Part shown: piece after piece, positions 2,848 to 62,924 of the stretch | How positions within the stretch are numbered: position 1 is the stretch's first letter | Layout: every line of letters starts with the position of its first letter | Origin: Owenia fusiformis | Taxonomy: Eukaryota; Annelida; Polychaeta; Sabellida; Oweniidae | Assembly (NCBI GenBank): GCA_903813345.2 | Contig: CAIIXF020000004.1 | Span: 7,953,525-8,017,524, forward strand | Direction: 5' to 3' | Length of the DNA: 64,000 bases | Notes under the pieces: model-generated | The model's database searches: none | What the model saw: the letters and a program-made list of their open reading frames with translations, nothing else | Told to the model about the DNA's origin: nothing | Made by a program: the position numbers and the translations under genes

Positions 2848-4287
2848 ATGGTGCATATTTTTAAAATACAAAAAGGGAACATGCAAAAATATGTTTCACT
2901 TCTGGTAGGAATACTTGGTGTTTTTCTGGTAGGAAAAATATACAGCTTTAACACATATGCAATTGCCCTGAAAAAGACTTTCAACTATACACAGACAGAA
3001 GTTGAGACTATAGCGTCAAGTGGAGACTTGGGCCAGTTCTTAATGGTTCCAGCGGGACTTATGTATGATAGGTTTGGACCAAGACCTCCATGTATACTCG
3101 GTCTAATTCTCACTGTACTAGGATTTACGTTATTATGGATGAGTACAATGTTTAATGCATTTTTCGCTGTGAATTCTTGGCTGCAAAACTTCATTTATTT
3201 TGCAACATTATTCGGAACATCATTTCTGTATATAGTAAGTACAGGAGTTAATGTTAAAAACTTTGAAGGAAAACAAAAAGTTTGAGTTCAGGTGGTTCTT
3301 GGTTGCGTATTTGGAATTGCCCCAACAATATTCAGTGCCATCTATCAAGGCTTTTTCGTACAAGGCCACATAAAAGATGCAGAGAATCAAAAATATGGAG
3401 ATTTTATGCTATTCCTAGCAGTGCTGTCCGTGATCATTTATTTGTTAGCCATTGCGCTGCTGAAGGAAATTCCAATGAATGAAACATTTCAAATAGATGG
3501 AGCTAAATTAAATGAGCTGTTCAAAACTTTAGAAGAAGAAAGAGACGTGCGAGAAGCTGATGAAAACATGAATACCGAGCACTTCAATGAAAAGACAGAA
3601 TTGATGTCAAATGCGAATTGCAAAGACAACACTGCTGGTCCACCTGATCTGAATATATGGCAAATGATACAAACATTGCAATTTTATTACCTCTTTCTGA
3701 TAATTATTATTATAGGTGGAACTGGCGTAACGTTAATTAATAATATCACCATAATTTTGAAATCTGTCCATCGGGAATATGACATCACAGTTTTCACAAT
3801 CTGTCTTCCAATATTTTGTACATTAGGAAAAATTGTTATCACATTTACGACTAATTATATCCTCCGAAAATGGGATAATATTCCTAGATCAGTGTATCTA
3901 CTTCCGTGTGTACTGTTAATGTGCATGGGTCTGATTGCATTAATTTTCTCCAATCAGATGTTCTTTGGATTATTAAGTGGTACATTTTTTATGAGTCTTT
4001 CATTTGGGGCACTTTTTATACAACTACAATGTGTCGCTATTGAACTATTTGGTATAAAATATTTTGCACAGAACTATGCAGTCTTTTTCTCGGCACAAAT
4101 CATTGGTATGTTTGGCTTTCAAGAATTGTTTGGATTTAGCTATCAACTTAACAGCCTGCCAGGATCAAATGAGTGCTATGGTGAATATTGCTCAAAGTGG
4201 ACATTTGTTTTGCAAGCAATTTTATGTTTTTGTGCATTGTTCTTAAACATTTGTCTCATCAAAAGAAAAGAATCACAGGAAGTTTGA
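2848..4287 (+). CDS. nodulin-like MFS transporter, one in-frame TGA
   Basis: A 480-codon reading frame that stays in one frame throughout but carries a TGA at 3283-3285 (codon 146). Hydrophobic segments fit a 12-helix major facilitator. The N-terminal half has IASSGDLGQF and DRFGPRP (codons 74-80), and NVKNF before the stop. The second half has GGTGVTLINN (codons 290-299). These are hallmarks of the nodulin-like/NFD4 MFS family, plasma- or organelle-membrane transporters of uncertain substrate. There are no introns, and Met12 is an alternative start. Apart from the TGA no lesion is visible, so it is a very young pseudogene, an allele with a null mutation, a readthrough gene or a sequencing error. 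It lies upstream of the first recognised MED12 exon, probably inside a MED12 intron. Confidence 0.75.
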
Positions 4288-19600: not shown

Positions 19601-22600
19601 AAATGGATAATATTTTCCTGGTTTTTCAACTTTTACTTCATAGCTACATATTTCACCACATTCCAAATTTGTGGACACATCAATATCTGAAAAAATGTTA
19701 ATAGGCCAAGCAAATGGGCTCATAAAAGGCTCAAACATCCCAAAAATTGCAACAGTTTTTAAATTAGTCTTATATTATGTATTAATATCAGTTGAAAAAT
19801 ATATCAAAAATATAGAAAAATGTATGCAGTGGACAAATATGAAATTTCACTTCCTAGGTACCCCCTACAACCCTACCCAAAAATTGAGTATTGGTAGGAA
19901 ATAATTTTTTCTTCCCAAATGGAATACTTTAGTCAAGTATTCAAGCTTTATTATGATAGATCACATATTCACAAATAATTAAAATATTATTTTAATCAAT
20001 TTTGAGACCAGTAATTGGTCATTTGACCCCAAAGTATAACAAAATAGGCCACAAAACAGGCATGTTATCACATATCTATTTAGATATTTTAGGATCAGTT
20101 TGTCAGAAAAGCATGAAAAAAATCATGGTGTTACATATTCATATGAACTTCATATTTGGTGAGTGTCAGCATTCTGAAGTGTATACTTAGGAAGAAAAAA
20201 ATTATTTCATTTTCATAGTTTTACCCCGCCCACTATAGGGGAGACTTAGTTTTGATGATTAACTCCCACAATGCATCACATTTGTATTAGAGTTGACATC
20301 TAAATCATTTATATAGGCTTGTCATCATCTAAAATACAAGTTTTGTGAAGGTTTATACCTTATTAGTATGAAAAATGGGAATTATTAGTTGCACCTGGTG
20401 AAATGTTAAGGTGACCTCACTTTTATTTGATGAATAATTACATATCACCACTCTGATATTAGGGTATTTGATAACTGCTATATACTAGGCTTATCTAAAT
20501 AATGTAAGTTGTAGTTTTTGTGGAATTTAATATTGTTTAAATTATTAATTACAATCCGCAATTACAAAATTTGCATATATTTAAATTCATCAGATAAATA
20601 AATCATTACATAAGAGTACATTACTATGGAACTATCAATTGGATGTATAATGCTGTAGAAACGAATTTATGGTTATTAAACGGAATTTAAACTGACAGAG
20701 AACATTAAAATCTCAGATATATAATATCTGGGGAGTCTTTCATTAATATAATTTCAGTGCATAGGAATGATGGTAATTCTGTCTGTCAGGTTGGTCAGGT
20801 CATGTGCTGCATTCAGAATCGGATGCAGATATTGTGATTGTGAAAACTGCAATCCAAAGTGTCCAAACCTCAAATACAGTACTCATACAGTTCTCCTTGT
20901 GCTTCTCATTTATCATGCACAAACACAAACTTCAACATTTTCTTCAAACCTGAACCAAAAGCAGCAACCCAAGAATCCAAAATGTTGGAATATAAATGAA
21001 ATAAGATTGTCTTTGGGAAAAGTGGTCTGTGACAATATTTTGTTTCTTTTCTGGGGTGTGACATCGCATTCAGGTTATATATGGCATAGACAAGAGGCTA
21101 TCATTGAGGCAGATAAAAAAGAGTGAGTTCTTGAGAAAACAAGCGGTTGTTTTTAAATTACCAAAAGCACTGGTGATCCGGTCGATTACGCTTGTTGTTT
21201 CGGTAACAAAATGTCTAAACGTCGAAAGTACGATATTTCTTTTTTCCTTTTTTCACGCGTTGTAGGCAGAATCCCCACGATGTTTTTTTCTCACAGAATT
21301 GTTGATTTAATTCCTTACTTAAGTTAAATAAACGGTTTGGGTTAAAAGTGCAGAACTTAATTGTTTATCGAAATACCGTTTATGTAACTTAAGTGAGGAA
21401 TTAAATCGAAGATTCTGTTGTCTTCTGAACTATTTGTTCGCAAATATGTACATTTTTTAAACATATAATACTGATACATGTTTGTGATAACAATGTTGTG
21501 GGAATTCTGCCTACAATGTGTGAAATAAAGAAAAAAAATCAAACGTTCGATGTTCCGACATTTTGTTACAACGTAAACAAGCAGAAAACCAGTGAAATGC
21601 AAGCAACTCTGTCATTGCAGAGGAACATGCTCTTTTGTCAATTTATGGTGGAAAAATGGTGAAACCCTAAATTATCTTAGGCTTCTACGATTCTATTAAA
21701 AGAGAGCAGCAAGATCTGAATTATTGTAGCCCCGTGTTCTTCCTCCATTTTCTGATGGTGCGGAATACCACAGTTACAGAGTGTACCATCAGATCCAGGA
21801 GTGGGAGGGAAATAAACTGCCTCCATTATAATTGGGCTGGGAATTAAGCAACGAAACTATGTACCAATTGCCTAAATGCAGCTCCCCTTTCTCAGAGATC
21901 ATCCATTGTGTGTGTAAGGCAGATCGTATTTCTATGAGATGTTCTTGTAGAAAAATGAAATAACTGTTCTTTGATATGTAAGGTATGCAAAGGCATTTGT
22001 GCAAATACCTCCATTACTGATCGTGAGAATAATGATGACTAAATATGAACACTGGCAGATCTGGGCCCCTCCCACCCCCTACCCTGCGTGCAGAGTCTAG
22101 TTAAAGACGAAGCTCTCTTTTAAGAAGTGAAGTCAAACGAATGCAAAGGGTACCCACCCCCTTGGGCGGGCCCAGAAAAAAAATTGGGCCCAAAAAAAGG
22201 CATTAAGGCCCCGAAAAGTGGGCCTTTTTGGTCATAAATGGGCCTTTTAAAGCCTTATTTTTTAATTGAAGAAAATGGGTCTCAATATTTCAAAATTTGG
22301 GCCCACTTCAGGGTTTTAGGGGCCCAAAATTTTTTCCGCGGAAGTTTTTTTCTCAGACCTGACATTTGACCAGGGATTTACTTTGCGTTACACTAGTTAA
22401 CTCAGGAGGATTTATTAATGTAGAAACCTTTTCCTCATTTTTTATTGAATTTCATCTTGAAATCGAACATTCTTCAGTTGAACTTCTTCATTTCATTTCT
22501 CAATATCACTGTGTGGTTAAGAAAACCTTAGTCAAAAGTAACAATTTTTCCTTAATACAGGGCGAGCCAAAATGGTAACCCAAACAAATCTTAATAATCC

Positions 22601-29486: not shown

Positions 29487-32400
29487 TATTTCCTAATGCA
29501 AGATACAAGTATACAAATAACATAATACAATACTAGCAACAGCAACAGGTTGTGTAACACTTACATTTTTCTAATCAATATTTCAAAGTTAAATAAAAAC
29601 TCCAAATTTGGATGGTTTCCCTTTTTGTATTTGCTTATAACATTATGTGCCAATGATATAACTACATTAATTTTTTGATCCTTTGTCCCTATCAATTTTT
29701 CTGTTGGACTCAGATCAATATTTTTGTTAAATTTATCTTGACAATATTTTTTCACTAATTCCCAAACCTGTTTAATATGTGGACACTCAACAAAGAAATG
29801 CTTGTATGTGTCTCTTAATTTACATTTTTCACATTCATTATCATCTTTCTTTTTCATCTTATACAGTAGTTCATTTGTTGGGTATATTTTATAAATTATC
29901 TTATAATAAAGGGACCTAAGTCTTGGCTCCTTCAGACATTGAACTGTTCTAAATATCAATTTCATATCTATGTCACCCTCTTCCCTCCATTTTTCAGGAA
30001 TATTAGGTAGTTCTGTTTGATTTTTTATTATTATATTTTTATAGTCTTTTAATTTTGCTGTTGCTATAACAATATTATTATACATATTTTCATTGCTTTT
30101 GTGAACAATGGTTTTATTATACAATAAAGATTTTAACAAATTATATTGCATTCTTAACTCTGGTCTAGGGCCTATGATATTTAAAATTTCCTCAAACTCC
30201 TTTATTTTATCATTTTCATCAATAATCTGTCTAAGTTTCTTTATACCCCTTTTAACCCATTCTTCAAAATATATAACCTTTCTACCATATCTCAAACTGT
30301 GGTTATTCCATAATATATCATCATTGTTTAATTCATTATGTAAATCTTTATTGTCTAACCATTGTTTAACAAGTTCAACATAAAATGATGGCATTTCATC
30401 CTGTTTTAATTTTGGTTTCAACTCTGCATATTTTATATTGTAGTCAAATATATCTACATGTCCCATTCTTTTTATAAAGTAAAGGAACATATGCTTCCAG
30501 CTTGACTCATAATTTTTAACATTTTTTATACGTGATACCCAGACCAATAGTGCAGCACTTTGCACAGAAAAAATGTCAACCATATTTAACCCACCATTTT
30601 CAATGCTTTGTCTTAGTATTTTTCTTTTGATCCGTTCACCTCCACGATAATGCGGTTTTAAATTCCAGATGAATTTGTATAAAACATTATTAATCTCTTT
30701 CAAGATCGAGTCAGGTGCCTTAAAAACCATTAATAAATTTGTTAATTGAGATGCTACTAAGCTTTTCACTAAATTAATTCTGCCAACAATGGATAAAGTT
30801 CTGTGTGACCATTGATTAATTATCTTGTTCATTTTAGTGATTTTTTTATTCCAGTTTTCTTGAATAGAAGCTGCAGATCCCCTGTTTCTAAAAAGTACCC
30901 CTAAAATTTTCAATTTTGCATTTTTACCTAATTGCCATTTTAATCCTGCAGGTGATTCAAGAGAGTTTTTATTTCTTCCTATCCACATTGCCTCTGATTT
31001 TTGCATATTCAACCTTAATCCAGAAACTTTATAGAAATCATCAATTACTTTTAAGAGTTCAATTAAAGAGTCTTTGTTTTTGACAAATACGGTTGTATCG
31101 TCGGCATATATTGTTAACTTAATTTCTTTATCATTTGGCAATTTTAACCCTTCAACGTTTTGATTTTGGCGTACTTTACAAGCAAACATTTCAGTAGCAA
31201 TGATGAATATTATTGCACTCAATGGACACCCTTGTCTCAGTCCAGCCTTTAACCTAAACCAATCTGTGAAATAACCATTATTTGAAACAGCAGCTAAATT
31301 ATATCTAAAATGATAGCATATGTAATAACTCTCATATCTGTCCCTTCATGTGACACAAACAGAGTAGTATATTTAAGGATGCAGTACCAGGTCAGCGTAG
31401 AAAAAGTTCCAGACATTAGATTTTGCTCATATTTTTTACAATGTATCACTATGATGTTATCATCATCCAAGTGCAATATGAAGAGGATTGACCGTCTGGT
31501 AATTACAAAATAAAAAATTTATTTTACCTACCCAAAATGAATCTTTTTACTTTTTTGAGTTTTCAAAAGAGCTGGCACCTTTCGAACCCTGGTTTTCGTA
31601 TCCACTAATTGCGACTCAAGAACAAGTTTTCCCATAAAAGTGAAAGAGATAAAATATGCTTGATAAAATGTTTGCAATTTAATTCTTTTCTGGAAACACC
31701 ATTATTGAAATAAACTATAATTTTTGAATAAGACTAAATGCGAAAATGACGTTCTTGGGAGCTAGCTTTCTCAAACCGGAAGTCAAACCTGCGCAAACAG
31801 ACGTGAAAACCGACCCGGTACTGCTTCCTTAACAACAAATGTTTGTTTTATATTGCAATTATATCTTCACTCAATGAATGAATTGAATTGATAATACTTG
31901 TACTTGTATCTGTTTTTTTATCATATCACACATCCCAAGAAAGTGCTATCTTGTCATCATCTTGTGATGATGGGCATTTGGAAGTCTGTCCGCATATTTG
32001 CTTAACAATGCATTTTACTGTATAACTGTATAATTATGTCTTGTAATTGATTTTGTGAGGAAGTCAATTGTTTTGGCTTGAAAGACAATAAAATCTTGAA
32101 TCTATATGCATCACATTTGGAAGTATGCGGGCATACATCAATCTTATCATCAAAATTCATAGAAAACTAAATCTTGAATTTTTACATATGCAGAGCAACG
32201 GGTATGCCAACATCTGATTAGGTTTTGGACATGTTGACTTATATACATAGCAGACATTTGCTCTTTAAAGTGATATATCTGTCACTGTGTGTCCTTTTAT
32301 CACTGTGTGTCTTTTTATCACTGTGTGTCTTTTTATCACTGTGTGTCTTTTTTTATAGCCACTGGATGATCCTATGAAAGCAGACCTAGACAACCAGATA

Positions 32401-35400: not shown

Positions 35401-38400
35401 ACTTAAAATTGTTAGTACCCTACCAATAGGCTCAGATATTTTGACCAAAATAATTTTGATCAATAGGATTTGGGCTGAAAGCCAAGCTGTTTTCTTTAAG
35501 ATGCAGCATTTAAGGGGTGAGTCCAATAAATAGAATAGCCAAATAGGATTATGGGATGTTTGATGCAAAACCAATGACCAACACTGTGCAAAAAAGGCTA
35601 TATAGTAATAGAATATCCTGTTAACTATGCTCTAATATCAACTGTCATAGTGTGAAATATCTCCCGTATCTCCCGTGTTGTATAGACACATGCTATATCC
35701 AGATATTTGGCGGACAACTAGTATAGTTAGTACTATTTGCCACTCTACTAAATATGAACTAATATAAGCTGTGTTATATATCAAGGCTAACATATAGTTT
35801 GTCTACCACTCTATCAGATCTACAGAAAGGATATACTAGCCGATTCTATGAACAACAGCTTCTTCTAGCATATATCAGGATATACTATTAAATCAGAGCT
35901 CCAAAAACAAGAGATACGCTAACTATACGAAATGACGTCATCACATCTTATTTCTGTAACTTATCTGGCTTATTAATGATTGATGACTTGTTTACATTGA
36001 TAATTAATCCGTTTGTTGAGTGAATGGATTAATTTTCTACAACCGAGGGTTCTTATTTCCTTAAAAATAATTTTTGAGTTCATTTTTTATATACATTTAA
36101 TTGTATAATGTCCCTAATGCTATGATAAACATTGTGTTAAATTTTGAATTTAATTGATCAACTCCATGGAAAGTTATTTTTTAATTATTGAGTTTTCCTC
36201 TCGATCGGTTTTACTCTGCAGATTGTTTACACCTGACAAGAAAAGCTATTTAATGTTAAAAACAGTTTAGGAATCTCAAACAATTTGTTTAAAATATCAG
36301 AGATAAACACTAGATTAGTCTTTGCGATTAAGCTGTTTCTATTTAGAATTTCACTATGACAAATTTACATTGATAATTAATCCGTTTGTTAGAGTTTATA
36401 ACATTGGCGCATTTAGAGATGCAAGTAAATTGCATGGAACTTAATACTTCATAATTCATGTTCTATGTTATCTAGATTATCTGAGATAAACATCAGATTG
36501 GTCTCAGTAATTGTATTGTATTGTATATTTATTGCCTCATTTATATGAGAGAATACATTTTAGTATACATATGGTTTACATATAAAATATAAAATACAAG
36601 GATAAGATTAAATTATGTGATAAAAAAGTTGTTGTTTTGGAAAACATAAAAATAAAGTGATAGAGAAATTATGTGTCAAGCAGAGCCAACAGGTTGGCTC
36701 TGTGATTGTACATTTTGTGTACACATGATGATACAATTATTAACGTCTCACATGAAACATCTGAGAGACCTAAAACTTTCTTCATAATAACACCCATACT
36801 GTCACCACGACAGCCAAGGGCTTCAAATATGTTATGCCTATATGGTTCATACATAGGGCATCTTAATATAAAATGTTCAATTGTTTCAGTTTCACAGAGG
36901 TTGCACAATATACATCGTTTTGAACCATTGAAGTTGTTCGTATTTAATACATGGGCGTTACATATCAATTGCATCATAGTTTTACACTGGCTTTGACATT
37001 TAGGATATTTCTGACAAATCAACCACCATATGCAAGGTTTTAAGTCTGTGACATAGTCACGTAGGTATAAAAGTTTGCCATAACATGAGCATTGCAAGAA
37101 AAATTGCTTGACCTCGACGGATCTTACAGCATTGACAATTTGCAGTCTCCATGACCTCTTCGACGGAAGATATCCAGAGTCCAGCACATTTTTAACCAGA
37201 TTTTCAATTCCTAGCATTTTGGTCTTAAGGAAAATGCGCCGGATAGGAGAGAAAATATCGGCATGGTTGTCATAAGTGACATGAAACATCTTTACTAACC
37301 GTGTTATAGTTATATCCCTGTAAATATTATTAAACCTAAGTAAACTCCAGAGATACATCATCTGCAACACTGTAATATAGCCGTCTATTGACAACCATCC
37401 CAACGGCATCGTTGCACTAGGATTGGCTGAGGTTTTGGGGAAAAATTGGATACGTTTGCCAATCTCCCTATGAGTCAATTCAAGCTTTTCAACATCTGAC
37501 GCTTGGTAATTTATAACTGGTGCCCCAAACAGCATGGTTGGAATAGAAAAGGCCCAGTACAGTTTTGATGCTGTTAAGGGTGACAAACCACCTGTTTTGT
37601 GCCCCAGTCCCAAAAGTGAGCAGAATTTTCGCTTACCACTAGTGCAGCGATCATTAACATATTGTGAGATATCATTTTTACTAGATATTGGAACACCAAC
37701 ATGAACAGTGAAATTGACCTTTGGAATTCTCGTGTCACCTATCTTGAGAACGACATGACCTTTAACACTTGAATCAGTGACCATATCATTAAATGTCAGA
37801 AAGTTACATTTCGCTGGATGGATTTCATATCGCCATCTTCTACTATGTTCAAAGGCAGCGTTTAACATAAGTTGCATATCCATTTGATTTGTGGCAATAA
37901 TGGTCATGTCATCCGCATAAGAAGGACATACACAGTTTACATCATCAATGTGGCCACCTATATTCATTTCACATAGATCCTGAATAAGGTCAGCCATGTA
38001 CAACTGATAAAATAGCATAGATAGGACACCCCCTTGGTGGACGCCCTGCATGACATTAAAAGGTTTAGAAAGTGTATTTGAACTTCCTACACGAACGGCA
38101 CATTCATATTTATGGTAATTATCATAAAGCATACGCCACAGTTTGCCATGGATACCAAGTTTATGTAGTTTGACCATCAATCCATCTAACCAAACGGTGT
38201 CAAATGCTTTTCTAATATCTAATGTGGCTAATATTACATTTCTATGCTTTTCGACATTGTGGGCAATGGTTTCCTGAACTAAAAGGGAAGTATGAACAGC
38301 AGAGCAATGACTCTGAGAAGCACCTTGTAAGTTAGGCATAATATTTTTTGCAAGGGATCCAATTCTTTTTAACACAATATGATCGTACACTTTACGCAAC

Positions 38401-41400
38401 ATGTTCATCAGAGTGATGCCTCTGGAATTGTCTTTATTACAAGGATCTTTATTTCCTGCCTTTAGTATAGGTATCAGTATACCAAACCTAAAATTCATGG
38501 GAGTGTATTCGTTTAACATGGTTGCATTAAAAAGGGTGCATATGATCGAAATTACAGTGTCATTGCTATATTTTAAATGTTCGGCACATATCGTATCCGA
38601 TCCACATGCACGATTATTATGCAACCGTGATATGGCATTACTCACTTCACTATCCTGAAAAGGTTCATCAAAGAAAGTATTATCTTCAAAATATGATGTT
38701 TGCTTAATATGCATAATTTCATTTTCAATTTCACACTTGGCATGGCTGTGAAAATGAGGCTTATCAGAAGGGGTTGCCAAACGAGCAAAGTGAGTGCGCC
38801 ATTCATCCCTTATTCCAGCCTCGTCACTTACGATGACGTCATTATCAGATTTAATTGGAGACAGACGCCTAGAAGCCCTATTTCGGCTCTTATTGAGAAG
38901 ATGCCAATAGTAACGCTGATCAAGTGATTCTGACCTGTATAGACGATTAAGCTCATTTTGTTCATACATAAACTCACTACATCTAAAACATTTTCTAAAA
39001 GCACATTTGGCAGATTTATATTGGGCCCTAATTACATTATCCGCATTTCGAGGTCGACCAGCCGACACCCACTCACGCCATCTTTTCTTCTTTAACTTTA
39101 CTAATCTGGTTAATTCATCATTCCAGAATGGCTTTACATGCTTTGAGAACTTCTTAATGGGGATATGTGCATTAGAGCATTCAATCAGGCCATTTACCAG
39201 TTTCAAGATATAACTATCAATTTGGCAGTTTTCCAAATTATTTACACCAATTAACCGTAAATCATTCAGAATGCCCTTACATTGCAAATCAAGAGATGAT
39301 GTGTACGTTGATTTAATTTCATCGGATGATAATTTATTCCACGCATATCCAACACAATCATTTCTTTGAATTACATGCTTAACACTAGTGAGGTCTCTAA
39401 AAGTCGTGATTATGGGGAGATGGTCTGACGTGTTGCCAGGCTCATTGTCTAATATAACACATTCGGAAACATTACCGCATAGAGGAAGGGACACAATAAT
39501 ATGATCAATATATGACCTATAGTAATTACCATTTCTCAACATTTCAAATGTATGCACAGGACCCAAAGTAGCTCTGTTTGTATCAACTGCCCATAGCTCA
39601 TTACTCAGGCAAAAATTGTGCAATTCTATGCCACTCTGCGTCTGTGTATCCCTTACACCATGTGATCCCTGTAAAGTACCTAAATTTGCATTCACATCGC
39701 CAAATATCACAACATTTCCATCATTAGATATACGCTCAACAAAATCATTCAAAATATCCAAAGTTTCAGTAAAAGTGGTATGATGACAATTTTGCTGTGG
39801 CAGATACACAGAAAATATAAATAATGCAGAATCATCAAACACTAATTTAACACATAAAATCCTATCCGAGCACAGCTCTAGCATAGGCACGACCATATGG
39901 TCTAAGGATCTTCGCCAAAAAATGGCGGTACCGCCACTGCCCCAAACAGTCCCACATTGCATAGGATCCAAAATACTACTGCTTTTAGCCAAACATACAA
40001 AATCATTTGACAAATCATCTAACTTGTGGAGATTACATTCATAGAGTTTATGTTCGCTTAGTGCGAAAAAATCACATTTCGCCAAAATGTCCAATATATA
40101 GCGGTTAGAGGCCCCAAGACCTCTACAGTTCCATTGCCCAAATCGTAATTTGTTCTCATGAGGTGACATTGTTAATGATAACACGGAGTGAAATTCTGCG
40201 CTCGGGGCTGATGTGCAAATGTGTAGTGTCACAACAAGTAATAGGAAAGTGTAAGAATTTATCATTGTTTTATTATAGGCCATTATTATCATATTCATAC
40301 CAATCAATCTGTGACTTGTAGGCGTCATTCATCCTGTCTAGGTTGTCGATTCCACAGTCATAGTCGGACTGATCATCGGCATGGGTAGCCTGTCGTCGGT
40401 ATCCAGTTATAACTGGAATCGGTTTTTCTCGTCGCATGGCTGCTCTAGGTGCCCGTCGTTCCCAGCGCCTGCAGACTATTGATGGGTCGGGCCAAAATTT
40501 TTCTGATAGTAAAACATGTACATCAGTCTCGGGAACGCAAAGTTTGCATCCCACTTTGTCGTCGCAGAATTTATTCTTCACAATCTCAGCACGCATTACA
40601 CGCACCCCAGAGTTACGAGCGTGCTGCACGACTGCATCGCGTAATGAGACATCAGATACATCAGGTTCCATCCTCAGGTTATTCACATATACAAACGATC
40701 CCCGTACATCTTTTACTCCACGGAGTTTCACAATTCCTTTTGCAGCAGTCGGGGCGTTGGATTGTATTGTGTTTTTATGATGGTTTACAACAGTCCATTG
40801 CGCCTTAGAGGCTGCAGCAGCATATGTAGATAAAGTGCGGGCTTTGGGTTCTGATTCTAATTTATCCCTCGCGACATACTCAGATAGACCCTTTTTAAAG
40901 GGTATGTCAGTTTCAGTGTCAGATGAACGTCCTTCATGTGACTTGCCGTTGCGGCAAATACGATCCATATGCGTGGCAAAGGTGGAGCTTTTCGAAGCAC
41001 TTGGAGTTGAGGCATTTAGAACATTTTTATTTAGAGGTCTCAACGAATGCCCATTTGTAGTGTTTATGCATGGTCCAGGTTGCGCCTTTACAGGGGCGGA
41101 CTTACCATCAGATATCTTTGATGAGGTATTAATACGGCTCTCCGCCATTTCAGTTTCGCACGGGTGTTGATCAGATAAATCCAGAGTAATGTCCCTTGCT
41201 ATTGAACTTTCACTCAAAGCCCGTCTGTGCATGGCATTGTTTTGATTTATATCGAGGTCAACAGGTGCACGGTTAGTTTCACATACAGATACACTGGTCT
41301 TAGAGCCAGAATTAACTTGATTAGCTTCGTTTTGGCCATTTGAAATGGTTCTACATGTGCACAGTTTTATATGTGTTGATACCAAGTTGTTCATATCGTG

Positions 41401-44400
41401 CAATTCCTTACGTATAGTATTCAATTCCTTTTTGTATTCTTTATTCTCCCTCTCTAAATCCGCCACCCTCGTCGTCAATTTCACCAGTCTGGTATCCAAA
41501 TCAATAGATCTGTAATCCGGGGTGGGAGGTTCAGTGGGCTTCGCTGTATCAGGGATAGTTGGAACGAACGAAGAATCACTTAGGATTGATCTCGGAAATG
41601 CCCGATTTTCATTTTGGGTAGTAGGCTTGTTTAAATATAAATACATATCACAAATGTCACTTGCCATACGCTCTGCTTTATCGGTCTTGTTACGACGTAG
41701 TTTCAGCTTAAGCTTTCGGGGTATTTGTCCTGGCGTGCGGTTTTCAATAGGTCCAAAACATTCATTGTATTCCGATTCAAGATATCCTACAGCTTTTTCG
41801 AACATTACAATCCTCAGATTCTCGATCTGGTCCACATCTAACTGGGCACAAAGTTCCTCAATGGTATCATTTTTGGAATTATCCAATCCTTGCTCCATAA
41901 TACGCTCAATAGCGTCCATATTTTCGGAAGATATTATCAAATCCGTGAAAGATTTTTCATGTGCGGCCATCTTGGTCACGTGCTTTAGTCAATTTGTTTC
42001 TATTTTACTCTGTAATATTGATAAGTAATTGGGAAATTCCATTAATGCATATTATTGTAGAATGATGCATACCATTGTAAATGGTAATATTGAGCAGTAA
42101 TTAGGAAAATCAATTAATGCAAACTACTGTAGAATGATGCATACCATTAAAATGTCATTTTATACAATAATATTGAGTAATAATTGGGATATTTAATCAA
42201 TGCATACTATTGTTGAAATGATGCACACCATTGTAAATATCAAGTTACACTGAATATTGAGCAGTAATCGGGATTTGGGATATTGAATCAATGCATACTA
42301 TTGTAGAATGATGCACACCATTGTAAATATCAAGTTACACTGAATATTGAGCAGTAATCGGGATTTGGGATATTGAATCAATGCATACTATTGTAGAATG
42401 ATGCATACCATTGTAAATGTCATATATTCTGTAATATTGAGCAGTAATCGGGAAATGATGTAAATAACATCTTGAGACATGTCAGAGCAAAATGCTAAAA
42501 TAAATGTTTAATCCCTAATTATTCAATTTCAGTGGAATGAGTTTTGAAAACTAATCCGTTTACTAAAGTTAATGGATTAATTTCTACAACTGACGGTTCT
42601 AAGTTCCAATAAAAATAATTTGCAAATGAATTCTTTAAAATAAATTTGATGGCATAATGTCCCCAACGCTATGATAAACATTGTGTTAAATTTTGAAATA
42701 AATCCATCAACTCTGTGGAAAGTTACTGTTTTAATTTTAATAAGTTTTCCTCTCGGTTTTACATGTACTACATTGTTTCTCTTTCACATTGAGTTTTATA
42801 TTAATCTATTTGTTAGAGTTTATGCATTAATTTAATGTCACATTTAGAGATACAATAATATTGAGTAATAATTGGGATATTAATCAATGCATACTATTGT
42901 TGAAATGATGCACACCATTGTAAATGTCAAGTTACACTGAATATTGAGCAGTAATCGGGATTCGGGATATTGAATCAATGCATACTATTGTAGAATGATG
43001 CATACCATTGTAAATGTCATATATTCTGTAATATTGAGCAGTAATCGGGAAATGATGTAAATAACATCTTGAGACATGTCAGAGCAAAATGCTAAAATAA
43101 ATGTTTAATCCCTTATTATTCAATTTCAGTGGAATGAGTTTTGAAAACTAATCCGTTTACTAAAGTTAATGGATTAATTTCTACAACTGACGGTTCTAAG
43201 TTCCAATAAAAATAATTTGCAAATGAATTCTTTTAAATAAATTTGATGGCATAATGTCCCCAACGCTATGATAAACATTGTGTTAAATTTTGAAATAAAT
43301 CCATCAACTCTGTTGAAAGTTACTGTTTTAATTTTAATACGTTTTCCTCTCGGTTTTACATGTACTACATTGTTTCTCTTTCACATTGAGTTTTATATTA
43401 ATCCATTTGTTAGAGTTTATGCATTCATTTAATGTTACATTTAGAGATACAAGAACAAGCGCATGAAACATAATACTTCATAATTCATGTTCTATGTTAT
43501 CTAGATTATCTGAGATAAACATCAGCTTGGTCTCAGTAATACATTTGTTTCTATTTTACACAGTGTAATATTGATCAGTAATTGGGGTATTCCATTGATG
43601 CATACTATTGTAGAAATGTATACCATCGTAAATGTCATTTTATACTGTAATATTGAGCAGTAATTGGGAAATACAATTGATGTAAACTATCGTAGAGTGA
43701 TGCATACCATTAAAATTCATTTTATACAATAATATTGAGTAATAATTCGGATAACAATCAATGCATACTACTGTTGAAATGATGCATACCATTGTAAATG
43801 TCAAGTTACACTGAATATTGAGCAGAAATTGGGATTCGGGATATTGAATCAATGCATACCATTGTAGAATGATGCATACCATTATAAATGTCATATATTC
43901 TGTAATATTGAGTAGTATTGGGAAATGATATAAATAACATCTTGAGACATGTCAGAGCAAAATGCTAACATAAATGTTTAATCCTTAATTATTAAATTTC
44001 AGTTTAATGAGTTTTGAAAACTAATCCGTTAATTAAAGTCAATGGATTAATATCTACAACTGGCGGTTCTAAGTTCCAATAAATATAATTTGCAAATGAA
44101 TTCTTTTAAATAAATTTGATGGCATAATGTCCCGAACACTATGATAAACATTGTGTCAAATTTTGAATTAAATCCATCAATTCTGTGGAAAGATACTATT
44201 TTAATGAATGAGTTTTCCTCTCGGTTTTACTACATTGTTTCACCTTCAGATTGAGTTTACATTTGAGAACAGAGGCTCCATTTTACACAGATACAACCTA
44301 CAATCTGTATGCCCTTTGTTAAACAACGTGTATTTCCTTATATTTCACAATTCATGTTTTCTGTTATCTATTATATCTGCTGTATTATAAGTGTTAAAAA

Positions 44401-53711: not shown

Positions 53712-56700
53712 TTATGAAATTGTGCAAGAACAACACCTTCTATTGTCAAAATGGTCACTCTGATCAATGAGTTCTAATATACTTCTGTAACCAGAATTTG
53801 AATCCTCTCCATACTCATGGTTAATGCCAAGATTTCCTGAATCATCAGATTGGTTTGCAGTTTGGCCACACTGTTCAATCAGTTCTAATGCTCCTGTGTA
53901 ATCAGCATGGGAATCTCCTCCATACTGGTGGGCCATGTCAAGACTTTGCATGAAATAAGACAAAGCTTCTGTGTGGTTCCCAATTTCTTGATTAATTATT
54001 CCAATGTTTCTTAATAAGCAAGTGATATCAGGATGAGGATTGTCTTGATGGATCCGTCTTAACATTGCCAGACTCTCCTTTTGATATTCTAGTGCTTGAG
54101 TGTTATCTCCCATGATAAGATACGCATTGCCAATGTTGTTAAGTGAATTAGCAACATTTGTATGGGGACTGTCTTTATGGATCAGTCTTAACATCACCAG
54201 ACTCTCCTGATGATATTTCAGTGCTTCGGTGTTATCACCCATATTGAAATACACATTGCCAATGCTGTTTAGGGAATTAGTAACATCTGGGTGGGGACTG
54301 TCTTGATGGATGAGTCTTCTCATTTCCAGACCCTCCTGATGATATTTCAGTGCTTCATCGTGATCTCCCATGTTATCATATACATTGCCAATGTGGTGAA
54401 ATAAAGCAGCAAAATTTGGATGGGGACTGTCTTGATGGATCAGTCTATACATTGCCAAACTCTCCTGATGATATTTCACCGCTTTAGTGTGATCTCCAAA
54501 ACTATCATATACTTTGCCAATGCTGTGAAGTGAAATAGCAACATCTGTCTGGGGACTGTCTTGATGGATCAGTCTATACATTGCCAGGCTCTCCTGATAA
54601 TGTTTCAGTGCTTCAGCATGATCTCCTATGTTAGCATACACATTGCCAATATTGTGAAGTGAAATAGCGACATCTGAATGGGGACTGTCTTGATGGATCA
54701 GTCTTCTCATTTCTAGACCCTCCTCATGATATTTCAGGGCTTCACTGTGATTTCCCATGTCGTAATACACATTGCCAATATTGTCAAGTGAATTAGCAAC
54801 ATCTGTATGGGGACTGTCTTGATGGATTAGTCTTAACATTTCCAGGCTCCCATGATGATGTTTCAGTGCTTCAGTGTGATCTCCCATGTTATTATATACA
54901 TTGCCAATGCTGTGAAGTGAAATAGCAACATCTCTATGGGGACTGTCTTGATGGATTAGTCTTCTCATTTTCAGACTCTCCTGATAATGTTTCAGTGCTT
55001 CAGCATGATCTCCTATGTTAGCATACACATTGCCAATATTGTCAAGTGAATTAGCAACATCTGTATGGGGACTGTCTTGATGGATTAGTCTTAACATTTC
55101 CAGGCTCCCATGATGATGTTTCAGTGCTTCAGTGTGATCTCCCATGTTATTATATACATTGCCAATGCTGTGAAGTGAAATAGCAACATCTCTATGGGGA
55201 CTGTCTTGATGGATTAGTCTTCTCATTTTCAGACTCTCCTGATAATGTTTCAGTGCTTCAGCATGATCTCCTATGTTAGCATACACATTGCCAATATTGT
55301 CAAGTGAATTAGCAACATCTGTATGGGGACTGTCTTGATGGATTAGTCTTAACATTTCCAGGCTCCCATGATGATGTTTCAGTGCTTCAGTGTGATCTCC
55401 CATGTTATTATATACATTGCCAATGCTGTGAAGTGAAATAGCAACATCTCTATGGGGACTGTCTTGATGGATTAGTCTTCTCATTTTCAGACTCTCCTGG
55501 TGATGTATCAGCGCTTCAGTGTGATCTCCCATGTTGTAATACACATTGCCAATTTCATTAAGTGAAGTAGCGACATCTGAATGGGGACTGTCTTGATGGA
55601 TCATTCTTCTCATTTTCAGACTCTCCTGATGATATTTCAGTGCTTCAGTGTGATCTCCCATGTTATGATATACAAGCCCAATGCTGTGAAGTGAAGTAGC
55701 AATATCTGTGTGTGGACTGTCTTGATGGATCAGTCTTTCCATTGCCAAACTCTCCTGATGATATTTCAGTGCTTCAGTGTTGTCTCCCATGTTATAATAA
55801 TCATTGCCAATGTTGTGAAGTAAAGTAGCAACATCTGGGTGGGGACTGTCTTGATGGATTAGTCTTCTCATTTCCAGACTCTCCTGATGATATTTCAGTG
55901 CTTTAGTGTTGTCTCCCATGTTGTAATACACATTGCCAATTCTGTGAAGTGAATTAGCAACATCTGTGTGGGGACTGTCTTGATGGATTAGTCTTAACAT
56001 TTCCAGGCTCCCATGATGATGTTTCAGTGCTTCAGTGTGATCTCCCATGTTATTATATACATTGCCAATGCTGTGAAGTGAAATAGCAACATCTCTATGG
56101 GGACTGTCTTGATGGATTAGTCTTCTCATTTTCAGACTCTCCTGATAATGTTTCAGTGCTTCAGCATGATCTCCTATGTTAGCATACACATTGCCAATAT
56201 TGTCAAGTGAATTAGCAACATCTGTATGGGGACTGTCTTGATGGATTAGTCTTAACATTTCCAGGCTCCCATGATGATGTTTCAGTGCTTCAGTGTGATC
56301 TCCCATGTTATTATATACATTGCCAATGCTGTGAAGTGAAATAGCAACATCTCTATGGGGACTGTCTTGATGGATTAGTCTTCTCATTTTCAGACTCTCC
56401 TGATAATGTTTCAGTGCTTCAGCATGATCTCCTATGTTAGCATACACATTGCCAATATTGTCAAGTGAATTAGCAACATCTGTATGGGGACTGTCTTGAT
56501 GGATTAGTCTTAACATTTCCAGGCTCCCATGATGATGTTTCAGTGCTTCAGTGTGATCTCCCATGTTATTATATACATTGCCAATGCTGTGAAGTGAAAT
56601 AGCAACATCTCTATGGGGACTGTCTTGATGGATTAGTCTTCTCATTTTCAGACTCTCCTGGTGATGTATCAGCGCTTCAGTGTGATCTCCCATGTTGTAA

Positions 56701-59700
56701 TACACATTGCCAATTTCATTAAGTGAAGTAGCGACATCTGAATGGGGACTGTCTTGATGGATCATTCTTCTCATTTTCAGACTCTCCTGATGATATTTCA
56801 GTGCTTCAGTGTGATCTCCCATGTTATGATATACAAGCCCAATGCTGTGAAGTGAAGTAGCAATATCTGTGTGTGGACTGTCTTGATGGATTAGTTTACT
56901 CATTGCCAAACTCTCCTGATGATATTTCAGTGCTTCAGTGTTGTCTCCCATGTTATAATAATCATTGCCAATGTTGTGAAGTAAAGTAGCAACATCTGGG
57001 TGGGGACTGTCTTGATGGATTAGTCTTCTCATTTCCAGACTCTCCTGATGATATTTCAGTGCTTTAGTGTTGTCTCCCATGTTGTAATACACATTGCCAA
57101 TTCTGTGAAGTGAATTAGCAACATCTGTGTGGGGACTGTCTTGATGGATCAGTCTTTCCATTTCCAGACTCTCCTGATGATGTTTCAGTGCTTTAGTGTG
57201 ATCTCCCATGTTATCATATACATTGCCAATGTTGTGAAGTGAATTAGCAACATCTGTGTGGGGACTGTTTTGATGGATCAGCCTGTACATTGCCAGACTC
57301 TCCTGATGATGTTTCAGTGCTTTAGTGTGATCTCCCATGTTATCATATACATTGCCAATGTTGTGAAGTGAATTAGCAACATCTGGATGAGGACTGTTTT
57401 GATGGATCAGCCTGTACATTGCCAGACTCTCCTGATGATGTTTCAGTGCTTTAGTGTGATCTCCCATATTATTATAAACACTGCCAATGTTGCGTAGTGA
57501 ATTAGCAACATGTGGGTGGGGACTATCTTGATAGATTTTTTTATACATTGCCAGGCTCTCATGAAGATACTCCAGTGCTTTAGTGCAATCTGCTATTTCA
57601 AGACCAAGATTGTTCATTGAATGGGCAAGATCTTCATGGGGCCTGTCTTGATGGATCAGTTTTTCAATTTCTAGACTCTTCTGATATAGTGTTAATATTT
57701 TAGTGCGATCCTTACTAATGTCATATGTACTGGCAATGTTGTTAAGAGTAGCAGAAAAATTTGGGTGGGAACTTTGTTGGTGGATCAGTGTTTTCATTGC
57801 CAGACTCTTATGATGGTATTTCAGTTGTTGAGTCTCTTCTCCTCTGCAATTATATACATACCCTATTTTACTTAGAAGTGCAGAAATCATCTCTTTATCA
57901 TCTAGATCTCTACATATTTCAAGACTCTCCTCAAGATATTGAAGTGCAATGGCATATTTGCCTTGGGCCTTATATAGATCACCTATTTCTGTAAGGATGG
58001 AACTGATGTCCTTCTCTTGACCTCCATATTCAATGTTCTTAAGTGTTTTCAATTCTGCTTTATATACAAATAGTGCCCTCTCAAAGAAAAATGTGTTCTT
58101 GTATAACTCTCCTTTCACTTTATTATTTTCTTCAAAGTATTTGTTCTCATATACCCATGGATTCTTGTTATCAACGTTTGAATTGAGGAATTTACACCAA
58201 GGGTTGAAAATGTTGTAAAAGCGGAAAATGGCTGTAAAACTTCTGACTGGTATGACCTCTTGTGTTTCATCATCATTGGAACTGTGTAAGAATGATATGA
58301 GCTCCTTTTGTTGCTTATAATTACCATAGACCATATGTCTAAGATTGATGACAGTACTAACCATCATCTGGAGATCCTTCTTGGCCCTTAAGGTCAAAAT
58401 TCCTTTCTCCTGCAATTCCTCTAAGACATCTAGAGGGGCAGATGATGAACAGCCATGCATTAGTTTCAAAATGTTTATAGATATTGTAGCAAATCTGTAA
58501 ACATCATGCTTGGTATGTATTTTCTTTGAGAATGATTTTGATGTCAATGGGTTCTCATTGTATTTTTCCAAATCTTCTCTCAATGTCTTCATTGCTCGTT
58601 CCTTCCCAACAGTGATTTTTGGATTTTCTGTTGAGGATGATGCTAGTATTGCATGGACTTTGTCATTGTACTCCTTCCAAAGATGTTGATCTCCAATTAT
58701 GAGGGTTGATGACATTAGAACATCACTAAGGTGGTATCCCTCCTTAAGTGATTCATCCTTATACTGAAATTTACTCATCTCTTCAACAGTCATGATCAGT
58801 TCAAGTCTTGCAGGTTTGCTAGTGGTAAGGTCCTTTTTAGATTTCCTACCAATAGCTGTCTTACTAGCCCATGGCTGTGTTCCATCAAAAGAAACCCCTC
58901 TGGTGGTCACTTTATCCCAAAAGTCATTGTCTGTCATGTCATGTGGAAGGTGATTGTTATAATCTGTCAGAACTGGTATGTCTAAGCAGTTTAACAGTGT
59001 TTCCCCCAAGTTTAAAACCTTTAAGTGCATGTAATAGGCTATCATACGCAATTGCATTTTGACATTTTCTACTGGTTTACCTAAAGAATCATACAATATT
59101 GCCCACTCTATGTCAGAGTATGCTGTGACCTCTTGACGAGACAGGGAACCAAGTGCTAAAAATGCAAATTTACAATCGGGCTCCCCTAAAACAGAAATGC
59201 AATCTTCAATCATAGATTTATAAAAATCTAAAAGCTGTTTTGTGAGTCCACCATACAGATCTTTACTGTGTTTTATAGTGTTGTCTTCATCTTCTTCTTT
59301 CATCTCTGTTGTTACCTCATCAACTGTCATGTCTTCCTTTATGATGGTATTCACAGTGGTGTTGGAATAGTCCCTTATCTCTTTCAGTATTTCTCTGTAC
59401 TTTTGAGTTGAATCTTTTGTGGGCACTTCACAATTTTTTGACAGCTTTTCTAAAAAGCTGTTTTCTATAAGCTGAAGCTGCCTGTCAGTGCTTTCTAAGT
59501 CATGTTCCAGTGAGGTGTCCATGTCAGTATACTGCTTACTGTGTAACAACTCGAATCTTCGCTTTGCAGCATTGTACAATGCACAGGACCATATATAATG
59601 TTCATGCCAGATTTCCGAGGTCTGAGCTAATCTGATATGCTCCTCTCCAAGAAGGCACATCAAGTCTGCCTGTTTTCTTAGTTCTGTCTTTTGGTCACAG

Positions 59701-59743
59701 GCAGTTATTTTGCAACCAAGTTCATACATTGTTTGGGTAACCT
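53712..59743 (-). CDS. giant nucleotidyltransferase (DUF294-like) - TPR protein, main exon
   Basis: One uninterrupted exon; from ATG 59729 it encodes 2,005 residues. Residues 194-209 read GSLSRQEVTAYSDIEW, the GS...R.E....SD.E pattern of the DUF294/GlnD-type nucleotidyltransferase fold (acidic residues D206 and E208). LIIGDQHLWKEY and a helical segment follow, as in DUF294 proteins. From about residue 555 to 1950 run about 32 TPRs of 43 residues (IGNVYxNMGDHTEALKxHQESLxMxRLIHQDSPHxDVA), kinesin-light-chain-like in pattern. The end is RRCCSCTIS, with CTIS a CaaX-type prenylation signal. Upstream of the ATG is an acceptor (ttttCAG|AG at 59743), so the true start is probably in the 2A-like exon at 62924. 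The TPRs presumably bind proteins; substrate and pathway are unknown. Confidence 0.88.
54796..57117 (-). repeat. 9-TPR block (1,161 bp) tandemly duplicated inside the NTase-TPR gene
   Basis: Sequence at 55921 on recurs at 57082 on, offset 1,161 bp = 9 x 129 bp (nine 43-residue TPRs), with very few differences. Inside each block a two-TPR pair (258 bp; HSIGNVYNN then DNIGNVYAN) is itself repeated. The duplication keeps the reading frame. Confidence 0.88.
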
Positions 59744-60353
59744 CTGAAAATGAAAATTTTTTTTTTGCTTTTGATAATGATATGATAATAAGATTAAAAT
59801 ACTTTCAAATCTTATTTTTGCATGCAACTTCATGAGTTGATAATAGGTGGTTTAAAGGCCCCATTTGAAAGTTTCAACCACTTTGGCTCATATTATAGTC
59901 TTATTTTTAAACATTTGACCAATGGTGTTGAATTTATTATTTTCTTTAAAATAGCATTTCAGGGATCACTTGTATCTAGAAGTATTTGACATGTTTTATC
60001 ATCAAAAAATCTCAGCTTTTGTAAAATAAAAATATTTGACAATTTTAAAATACCAATATTATTTTTCAAGTGAAAAATGTCTCGAACATCTTTTAAAGTT
60101 GGCCAAAAAATATATTTGGATGAATAGAAATATTATCAAACTTTACTCCGGACCTTTAATTAAGCTGGGCATGGATAAGTGAAACTTTCTTAAAAGATAT
60201 GATATATAGTATTGATGCAAAGGTGAAATAAAGAACCTGAAGTTGTCAAGGTTAATGATTAATAGAATGTAAGCAGGTTCCGAATTGTTCTTGCTTTCAA
60301 TTGGAATACTTTATTGATTTTATTGATGATTATACAAATACAACAAGGTCTTA

Positions 60354-60988
60354 CAGGGTGGACCAAAAACATTTGAACATTACAAAATTGATATGCTTTA
60401 TTGCCTCTAACATCAATCAAGATTAAGCTAAAGATTGATTGATTTTATGTAATAAACATAAAACAAACAAGAAATACTTATCGATTACAAACATAATTTG
60501 AGTATTGGGTGTATCAGGAGACATTTTATATTTATAGCTTGAAATATTGTATCCCTCATCACAACCTTACTTTGTTCACCTTTCAAAAAGTCTTTATGCA
60601 AAACCTTTTAAATTGTAGCAATTAATGTTGCCTCTGTAGAAAGTTATAGATCACGCCCAAAAAGAACTTGTCACTGCATCCATAAAGGACTGTCAGCCAT
60701 AGATCAAGTAAAGCTCATTGTTCAGATGGTGAAGAAGAGTAAAACTTTCTAGGTTCGAAAAATTGGGTGGTCATCATAAGAAATGGAAAATGGAGAAGAA
60801 CAAACCAATACTTCACTTCTCCTATAACAGGCATAGGACAGATAGCATTGGCTGTTGGACCAATTGCCCACTTTTTGGATAAGTTAATCTTGTGTTTTTA
60901 CTTGCATTTCATAACATTCTTATAACAATATTTTTTTGTAATTTTGGAGAAAGATCTTGAAAAATGTTGTGATTTTTAGACCACCCTG
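60354..60988. mobile_element. Tc1/mariner-type non-autonomous element
   Basis: Flanked by TA. The left end is CAGGGTGGACCAAAAACATT and the right end, inverted, CAGGGTGGTCTAAAAATCAC. No intact transposase; a short helix-turn-helix-like remnant may lie at 60690-60790. It lies in the putative intron of the NTase-TPR gene. Confidence 0.65.
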
Positions 60989-61219
60989 TATATTAACTAT
61001 TTATTTAGATTTTTCTCTCAAAAGCAGGACTATCCTATGAGTTAGGGTTCAGAGCTTAGACAGCTACAAACTTTTCGGTTTAGTTCAGTTTGGTTTTTGA
61101 CTCCCTTGGTTTGGCTTTCGGTTGAGTTATTCTTGGTTCATATCGCACTGTTCTTATATTCTACTATAAAGAATATAAATAAAATTAGTCTTAATGATCA
61201 CTATATTTTGATTTTTATA

Positions 61220-62538
61220 CAAGGCAAGGAGGATTGGCTTCCAGATTTACAACTTGATATTTAAGTCTCCAAGCAGTTTGTTATGTGATGTTTGTGTTCC
61301 TGCATGTTTCTTTTGATGGCAATAGCAATGATAATGAGAAACATGTCATGGTGAGGTACAGGTGACGCCCATATGGATACGGATGTGTTTTTGTCAACAC
61401 TGAGGAGGCTTTTTCTGAGACGTGGGGAGGTAGATTTTTAAAGTTGGAAATAGATTGTTATCTTTGACTTTTATGTAAATATATTTGAGTTTGAATGTTA
61501 ACAATGCTATGTATTATTTCTTCTTTTTTGCACAAACCGACGGCTATCATCTGTGAAGGAAAATGAGCAATTTCGTCAGTGTTGACACATTTTTATCTTT
61601 TAGCCTTGGTACCATTCTGTGAACATACAATTACATCGGTAAAGTATTCACATGATGTGCGAAAACCAAGAGTGAAAAGAGTCTAAATAAGTTTTAATTG
61701 TCCTGAAAAATTAGTTTTGAGTAAACCATGAGGAGGGGTTCAAATTATTTCAGTTGACGTCAAGGAAGTGTTAAGGGAAGTGTAGAATACATGTACACTG
61801 ATTGTTAACGATCTGGAAGTGTAGAAAAACTTAGTATGACATGTTACACTAGGGATCGCACATACATGTACATTATTTACGTATCTCGTTGTTATGAAAT
61901 GTATTCTTTAAAGATTTGATAGATAGGTCAAGGTTAAAATAAATCTTAAAATAACAATTATGGCATTTGTTGTGTGGTACTGAAAATAAAATAAATCAAT
62001 ACCTACCTGAAAATACATACCTGAAAATGTATCTCGACCCTTAATAACTTGATATAAATATACCTTTATTGTGCATAGAGCTAACATGGGAACCCCACTT
62101 GACATACGTTGACGAAGCCTATGCGAAGACTTTCTGATCGTTAACACATTGAAACAAATTACAACGAATGACACACAAAACTTTTATTCGCCGCAAATTT
62201 TTAATCATGTTCAACATTTTCAGAAAAATAAGACAAATTTCAACGGATGTACAATAAACGCTCACTAACACATCCAAACGAACACCACCAACAATGTTCG
62301 ATGTACTGCCAAGTACATATACTAATGGGAATGAATTTGATTCATGTCCTTGACATTAAGTTGATGTTTAGGGGGTTTCACTCATATGTGAGGGGGCCCT
62401 CAGATTGAATAATTGTAAGCAGCAAGATGGTGAAATTTTGTCATGTTAATTATGCCTTGTTTGAATTTTGTAAACACGCCATGACTCCATGTATGACAAA
62501 ATATCAAGATGAAATGCTGGAAGTCAATCCTCCTTGTT
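61220..62538. mobile_element. TIR-bounded element, 1.3 kb
   Basis: 'caaggcaaggaggattggct' then tccag at 61220, and its inverse 'ctggaagtcaatcctccttg' at 62517. The same core bounds the MITE at 46108. Interior ORFs are short and unrecognised. It lies between the 2A-like exon and the main NTase-TPR exon. Confidence 0.5.
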
Positions 62539-62725
62539 CATCAGGCATTTTTTTTCAATATTTTAGAGAATATGCAATTTACAAAGGGTAATTTTCACTC
62601 AATTAATGTTTTCTGAAAAACCAAACTGAACAGCTTTTCTGAACTGTCGAGGACAATGACCGTTGGAACGCTGCACTTATGGTTAGCCATCTGACCCCTA
62701 CTATGAGTACTTAATTTATTGTTAC

Positions 62726-62924
62726 CTGATTTCTTTTGTGGTTGAGTTTGTGGGCCTGGGTTTTGTTCAACTCCTCCTCGTACCAGCAGTATCGTAATGA
62801 TTTGCAGTATCAATACCATCTGTTTTGGAGATTTAACGATTCTTGATAAACGGATTGTCTTTTTTTGCCGACCTCCATTGAACATTCCAATGGCAACTCT
62901 CCATTGCTCCATTGAGATCCCCAT
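62726..62924 (-). CDS. leader exon with 2A-like NPGP motif, probable first exon of the NTase-TPR gene
   Basis: ATG at 62924. Residues 1-18 are MGISMEQWRVAIGMFNGG; 36-48 are hydrophobic (MVLILQIITILLV); 49-58 are RGGVEQNPGP, the D-x-E-x-NPGP 2A signature except that the usual Asp is Gly. A donor TCAG|GTAACA lies at 62725 and leaves phase 1. The acceptor at 59743 of the NTase-TPR exon needs exactly phase 1 and keeps the frame to its ATG. Reading on without splicing gives a 109-residue ORF ending at 62595. In 2A peptides the ribosome skips the Gly-Pro bond. N-terminal 2A-like leaders are known in sea urchin NLR-type proteins and in non-LTR retrotransposons. The alternative is a stray LINE ORF1 5' end. 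Confidence 0.6.
62751..62777 (-). other. 2A-like ribosome-skipping motif GGVEQNPGP
   Basis: Codons 50-58 of the leader exon. The NPG|P junction is intact. The canonical Asp before VE is Gly, so skipping may be weak or absent. The preceding helix-forming hydrophobic stretch is retained. Confidence 0.65.

Follow-up and report, generated by a model that had tools for sequence, protein, structure and literature searches.

A predicted 2A/StopGo first exon on an expanded nucleotidyltransferase-TPR gene family in the annelid Owenia fusiformis

The 64,000-nucleotide stretch of the Owenia fusiformis genome analysed here (contig CAIIXF020000004.1, positions 7,953,525 to 8,017,524; hereafter the window) holds on its minus strand a very large exon encoding a nucleotidyltransferase (NTase) domain and an array of tetratricopeptide repeats (TPR), and upstream of it a small exon encoding a 2A-like sequence. 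Do the two belong to one gene and, if so, what would a 2A leader do there? The initial annotation had joined them in frame and had proposed that the leader divides the protein between the cytosol and the endoplasmic reticulum (ER). We consider it quite likely, from comparison of the paralogous sequences, that the gene is a member of an expanded family built of a 2A/StopGo first coding exon, a phase-1 intron and an exon encoding a DUF294-type NTase with TPR, in which ribosome skipping yields two products; each messenger of the family would then probably make two proteins.

The exon coordinates, start codon, phase-1 donor and phase-1 acceptor of that annotation all agreed with a direct reading of the letters (Table 1). 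The leader exon translates as MGISMEQWRVAIGMFNGGRQKKTIRLSRIVKSPKQMVLILQIITILLVRGGVEQNPGPQTQPQKKS plus one extra base, its 3' end reading ...LLVRGGVEQNPGP-QTQPQKKS-G followed directly by GT, and the NTase-TPR exon opens with two bases that complete a GAG codon, so that the frame across the predicted junction stays open to the internal ATG and onward to the distant stop. The core GVEQNPGP satisfies the expanded, viral-sequence-derived StopGo motif (D/G/C/N)(V/I)ExNPGP (PNAS 2026, PMC12846837), in which Gly at p12 is a known functional variant with a prevalence equal to that of Asp (PMC12846837). The residues ILLVRG preceding the core resemble, by eye only, the L-rich upstream elements described for StopGo, one motif of which ends in (A/G/S)G at p12 (PMC12846837). 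Six-frame translation of the window contains NPGP three times, compared with 0.05 times per mononucleotide-shuffled window (20 shuffles), and the leader's copy alone matches the expanded motif; a random occurrence of NPGP is ruled out by these counts together with the reversed-pattern genome control given below.

The strongest support comes from the paralogues. Protein searches of the 498-Mb assembly with three leader queries, followed by reading of 60 loci, revealed 56 homologous leader exons, 55 with NPGP and one (L038) with DPGP. NPGP was present in 58 of the 60 loci, three of which (L067, a small exon, and L068 and L069, both read as similar to long interspersed nuclear elements, LINEs) are not of this leader type; L070, also LINE-like, lacks NPGP. 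With 52 of the 55 NPGP leaders distinct at the protein level, a few copies may reflect very recent duplication or duplication in the assembly. The NTase region gave 84 genome matches (E up to 0.001), merged to 80 loci. Pairing leaders with NTase exons one to one, on the same strand and in order, joined 52 of the 56 within 60 kb, 44 within 20 kb and 33 within 5 kb, whereas random placement within 20 kb (300 trials) gave a mean of 0.07 pairs and a maximum of two; this control covers the 20-kb distance only. Even among unselected raw leader matches, 41 of 67 had an NTase match on the same strand within 20 kb downstream. Several further weak raw matches with long frames lie outside the set of loci read; judged by position or score, most of these seem to be copies of LINEs that are in it. 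A leader was present at 52 of the 66 close NTase loci compared with none of the 14 distant ones. The search for NPGP leaders in paralogous genes, which the initial annotation had put forward as a check, thus came out in favour of its in-frame union of a 2A-like leader with an NTase-TPR exon.

A genome-wide scan for GG(V/I)ExNPGP pointed the same way, returning 37 sites (none with the reversed pattern), 33 of which are family leader exons by their coordinates. The remaining four comprise two LINE copies (L135 and L136), one site with the letters of L136 and a small exon at C11:27966453. This last exon (L137) is isolated, ends ...VIKLLLIRGGVELNPGPHLKGG with a phase-1 GGTAAG donor-like site and has no NTase match nearby; it may represent a further host gene that carries a 2A leader.

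Splice sites are conserved in phase across the family. The best-scoring donor, using animal weights, lies in phase 1 in 55 of the 56 leaders, and L009, the one exception, contains a phase-1 CAGGT as well. At 48 of 60 NTase loci the acceptor AG falls in the same codon as that of the window; of the other 12, 11 are by eye in phase 1 with whole-codon shifts and the twelfth is the outgroup L110. Leaving out L098, the split codon encodes Glu at 46 of 47 acceptors (read with the leader's G as its first base), the third codon Thr or Ser at 45 of 47 and the sixth codon Met at 46 of 47, while the same frame upstream of the AG shows no comparable conservation, its commonest residue reaching 17 of 47 at best. 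All 55 leader starts have a purine at -3 and G at +4. The leader exon and the junction are well supported by these comparisons, and we infer splicing between the two exons from this conservation among paralogues.

Selection has acted on both ends of the leader. The ratio of non-synonymous to synonymous substitution rates (dN/dS), pooled by segment over 26 hand-picked pairs that share members, was 0.17 in the first 16 residues and 0.15 in the final 24, compared with 0.56 in the middle; for the whole leader it was 0.35 over 29 pairs, single pairs ranging from 0.04 to 0.80. By this measure purifying selection acts on the N-terminal motif as well as on the 2A segment. Residues G2, R9 and G13 were found in 54 of 54 leaders and Q7 and W8 in 53 of 54 (L030, which is cut, was left out), and at p12 all 55 NPGP leaders carry Gly. 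Distances among leaders correlate with those among their NTase partners (r 0.64 for 30 of the 52 pairs, matched; 2000 permutations never reached this value), a result consistent with a union that predates much of the family expansion. Leader length up to NPGP ranges from 54 to 215 residues; L029, L030, L047, L051, L052 and L053 have about 90–160 extra residues between the N-terminal motif and the 2A.

On the scheme that we favour, in which splicing, skipping, the share of ribosomes that skip and the separate fates of the products are predicted from exon, motif, phases, pairing and selection as read from the sequence, the small 2A exon would be spliced through the phase-1 intron to the large NTase-TPR exon. 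The ribosome would make MGIS...NPG, release it without a stop codon and carry on with a separate protein starting PQTQPQKKSEVTQTMYEL.... Because the leader would be released in this way, most of the NTase-TPR protein would be leaderless and cytosolic, with an N-terminal proline, and the leader peptide would form a second, conserved product. A non-skipping minority would retain the leader, and a membrane-directed form may arise where the leader is strongly hydrophobic, the window gene included.

Table 1. Coordinates within the window of the leader exon, the predicted intron and the NTase-TPR exon
Feature	Positions	Strand	Remarks
Leader exon	62726..62924	minus	ATG 62924-62922 to split-codon G 62726; 66 codons + 1 base (phase 1); then GT
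N-terminal motif MGxSxxQWRxxIGxF	62880..62924	minus	conserved across family leaders
Hydrophobic segment MVLILQIITILLV	62781..62819	minus	2A upstream element, signal-like
2A/StopGo core GVEQNPGP	62751..62774	minus	predicted skip between Gly (62756-62754) and Pro (62753-62751)
Predicted phase-1 intron	59744..62725	minus	GT 62725-62724, AG 59745-59744; family donors and acceptors
NTase-TPR exon	53712..59743	minus	about 2010 codons to stop; internal ATG 59729-59727
DUF294 nucleotidyltransferase match	59058..59225	minus	Pfam; GSLSRxExTxxSDxE motif 59106-59150
TPR array	54033..57585	minus	129-base unit, 27.5 copies, 85% matches; Pfam

The body of the protein shares the GSxxRxExTxxSDxE motif with DUF294/SidM_N-type nucleotidyltransferases and differs from them in being fused to a TPR array. 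All 25 aligned paralogues matched DUF294 (E up to 0.01) and 10 of the 25 matched SidM_N, and the GS, R, E, T, SD and E residues of the motif are invariant in the alignment, which makes a working nucleotidyl- or adenylyltransferase likely. A single-sequence AlphaFold model of the NTase region reached a mean predicted local distance difference test score of 35.6, too low to confirm the fold. Compared with solved structures, the single sequence gave no match, whereas a profile matched eight chains (E up to 1), of which the two below 0.01 are both DrrA. A bacterial origin of the NTase was rejected: a prokaryote scan based on two peptide patterns returned 17 matches, and no relative was confirmed among them. 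Open frames around the NTase matches reach 4014 codons (uninterrupted, in the paralogue at C10:2665367-2666983), so that TPR length probably varies strongly among paralogues. By analogy, an expanded and repeat-bearing family of this kind suggests a role in recognition or immunity.

Several observations weigh against the reading that we prefer. Although Glu occupies p14 in 48 of the 55 NPGP leaders, it is replaced by Gln in six and by His in one, and L038 has DPGP; section 9 of PMC12846837 includes His, not Gln, among its rare p14 variants, and N16A abolishes StopGo activity (PMC12846837). The DPGP copy is therefore probably dead for skipping and the Q clade uncertain; these leaders may skip poorly or not at all, in which case StopGo would not be indispensable in every copy. 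The Q and H leaders form the clade L054-L060 (GVQLNPGP, GVHLNPGP), which is otherwise conserved. The whole-leader dN/dS is not low in some pairs (up to 0.80), the donor predicted for L041 is weak and distant, the acceptor of L098 (one of the 48) stands in a doubtful context, and the leader of L017 begins with Leu. Eight leader-NTase pairs span more than 20 kb, and four of the 56 leaders (C1:60903211, C354, C11:35430834 and C7:36440295) have no NTase in reach; the first of these adjoins a run of N and the second lies on a 21-kb contig, the other two being unexplained. Nothing decisive was found in the 10 kb downstream of C2:3830202. Near the orphan leader C1:60903211, tandem repeated open reading frame (ORF) units (NREALREYASSVATRGIIHSNSSRATTSS...) occur at L031 654-4202. 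No leader was detected at 14 of the 66 close NTase loci, four of which form a well supported clade (100/100 in an NTase tree of 40 rows, 31 of them with leaders, on which the leader label needs five changes). For three loci without a leader (two from that clade, and C8:19828740), a regular-expression scan of the 5.3–6.1 kb upstream did not find the leader motif.

The leaderless loci bear on a different reading, in which the NTase-TPR protein starts at the conserved Met of position 59729 from a downstream promoter, the leader being a pseudo-exon or present in some transcripts only. The retention of this Met next to nearly every acceptor would permit leaderless initiation and is a further point against a leader-bearing start. 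Nevertheless, the Met sits within a conserved M-Y-x-L-G and could be kept for structure, protein-level conservation extends over the codons from acceptor to Met, and the leader exon is under purifying selection; we hold a downstream start to be very unlikely. A somewhat better case, possible if still on the unlikely side, can be made for the leader peptide itself being the selected product, the gene being effectively bicistronic and delivering the MGxSxxQWRxxIGxF peptide and the NTase-TPR protein in a fixed ratio. Constraint on the N-terminal motif is as strong as that on the 2A itself, though residues influencing 2A lie no more than 30 positions from the site (PMC2978324), and several clades have leaders of 77–215 residues. 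Yet the leader has no Pfam match, and its motif could instead help initiation or have its effect at the ribosome. A general role of MGxS in N-myristoylation was rejected, the classical Gly-2 pattern matching only 6 of the 55 leaders.

The dual targeting proposed in the initial annotation has its precedent in sea urchin, where reporters show unskipped protein carrying the SpNLR2A6 leader entering the secretory pathway (Traffic 2016, PMC4981915). Applied here, the leader would be a signal sequence combined with a 2A, and skipping efficiency would divide the NTase-TPR protein between the ER or secretory route and the cytosol. The window leader is indeed as hydrophobic as that of SpNLR2A6 (best 12-residue Kyte-Doolittle values of 3.12 and 3.08 respectively), carries a net charge of +7 ahead of the hydrophobic segment, and belongs to a family in which 31 of 55 leaders are at or above the level of SpNLR2A6. 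The two systems also share an N-terminal 2A, an L-rich segment and an expanded, repeat-bearing cellular family. The SpNLR leader, however, has 26 residues, a DVE core and NACHT-LRR proteins behind it (PMC4981915), whereas the leaders described here form a separate exon, are longer, have mostly G(V/I)E and an extra N-terminal motif, and precede a DUF294-TPR body; the window protein has DUF294 and TPR in place of NACHT-LRR. In 18 of 55 leaders the best segment stays below 2.3 and includes a charged residue, and yet the 2A is kept; in every leader measured the segment begins 32 to 195 residues from the N-terminus. A hydrophobic segment does not have to serve targeting, because an L-rich stretch is already a known 2A upstream element (PMC12846837). 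The segment is probably still in the exit tunnel at the skip decision, a view helped by PMC2978324, and the decision would then precede any targeting. For these reasons dual ER/cytosol targeting appears possible for the window gene and some relatives, and not to be the conserved core of the family; as an account of the leader we regard it as unlikely. Selection keeps both the 2A and the N-terminal motif, and the latter is not explained by ER targeting.

LINEs are the other known setting of such sequences; 2A elements of LINE (non-long terminal repeat) retrotransposons were reportedly described by Odon in 2013. In this genome GD(V/I)ExNPGP occurs at 73 sites (none in the control), none of them among the 56 leaders by coordinates. 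Seven were read (L026, L028, L068, L069, L134, L138 and L139): five directly precede an endonuclease-like stretch, and in L026 and L069 the 2A precedes an ORF1-like coiled coil, these LINE regions being identified by eye rather than by profile search. Several LINE ORFs also open with a WRxxxG motif, identity of the N-terminal motif to that of the window leader being 10/15 in L026, 8/15 in L028 and 11/15 in L025 (the last by eye). This resemblance is what could favour the 62.6-62.9 kb segment being a LINE 5' end or a retrotransposed leader outside the gene. LINE 2A sequences, mostly GD(V/I)E, run in frame into endonuclease-like or ORF1-like protein, however, whereas the family leaders stop at a splice donor; in the window the paired exon is the NTase, with no endonuclease, reverse transcriptase or ORF1 continuation. 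A DNA search, which skips very common words, lists four places, the segment itself included. Few DNA matches, the donor ending and the pairing and co-evolution with NTase exons contradict a LINE copy, a reading we hold to be extremely unlikely, and the alignment to a LINE 5' end that the initial annotation had named as contrary evidence was not found. The motif and 2A of leaders and LINEs are nonetheless likely to have a common origin, whatever the direction of transfer.

The window has LINE sequence of its own at 36672-41988 (minus strand), where an ORF of 571 residues precedes one of 1219 residues for an endonuclease-reverse transcriptase and the element contains no NPGP, and a second reverse-transcriptase ORF with a zf-RVT match at 29564-31345. 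Two further ORFs match DUF268, named for Caenorhabditis proteins (18836-19774, E 1e-40), and the Major Facilitator Superfamily (3286-4287).

We infer StopGo activity of the leader by likeness to RNA-virus elements, with which it shares the core motif and the L-rich upstream element with (A/G/S)G at p12 (PMC12846837); unlike these, the leaders are cellular, spliced and N-terminal and include a clade with Gln at p14. Use of StopGo by cellular genes is described as rare (PMC12846837), and cellular 2A leaders are already known from the sea-urchin NLRs, from which the NTase-TPR body and the N-terminal motif set the present family apart. As a more speculative and doubtful extension, a StopGo module shared with LINEs may have been domesticated as first exon of a repeat-diversified NTase-TPR family of about 50 members, whose architecture resembles that of innate receptors, and may act as a translation-state switch, an independent parallel to the sea-urchin leaders. 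Normal skipping would give the free leader peptide and a cytosolic Pro-NTase-TPR protein, and impaired skipping (under stress, or with altered release factors or eEF2) a leader-tethered receptor. Among the best-ranked 10 to 20 open-licence papers of each literature search we found no 2A joined to an NTase-TPR protein; the work of Rao (2025) reportedly covers eukaryotic 2A in cellular proteomes.

If the preferred reading is true, that is, if the 2A exon opens the NTase-TPR genes and is used for skipping, about 50 host genes keeping a 2A under purifying selection would represent a large cellular use of ribosome skipping, in which the Q, H, L and DPGP forms would offer a ready natural mutant series. 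After the sea-urchin NLRs, the family would give a second example of expanded repeat-protein genes headed by a 2A leader, with a body of another type, and its leaders point to a LINE-related origin of the 2A module.

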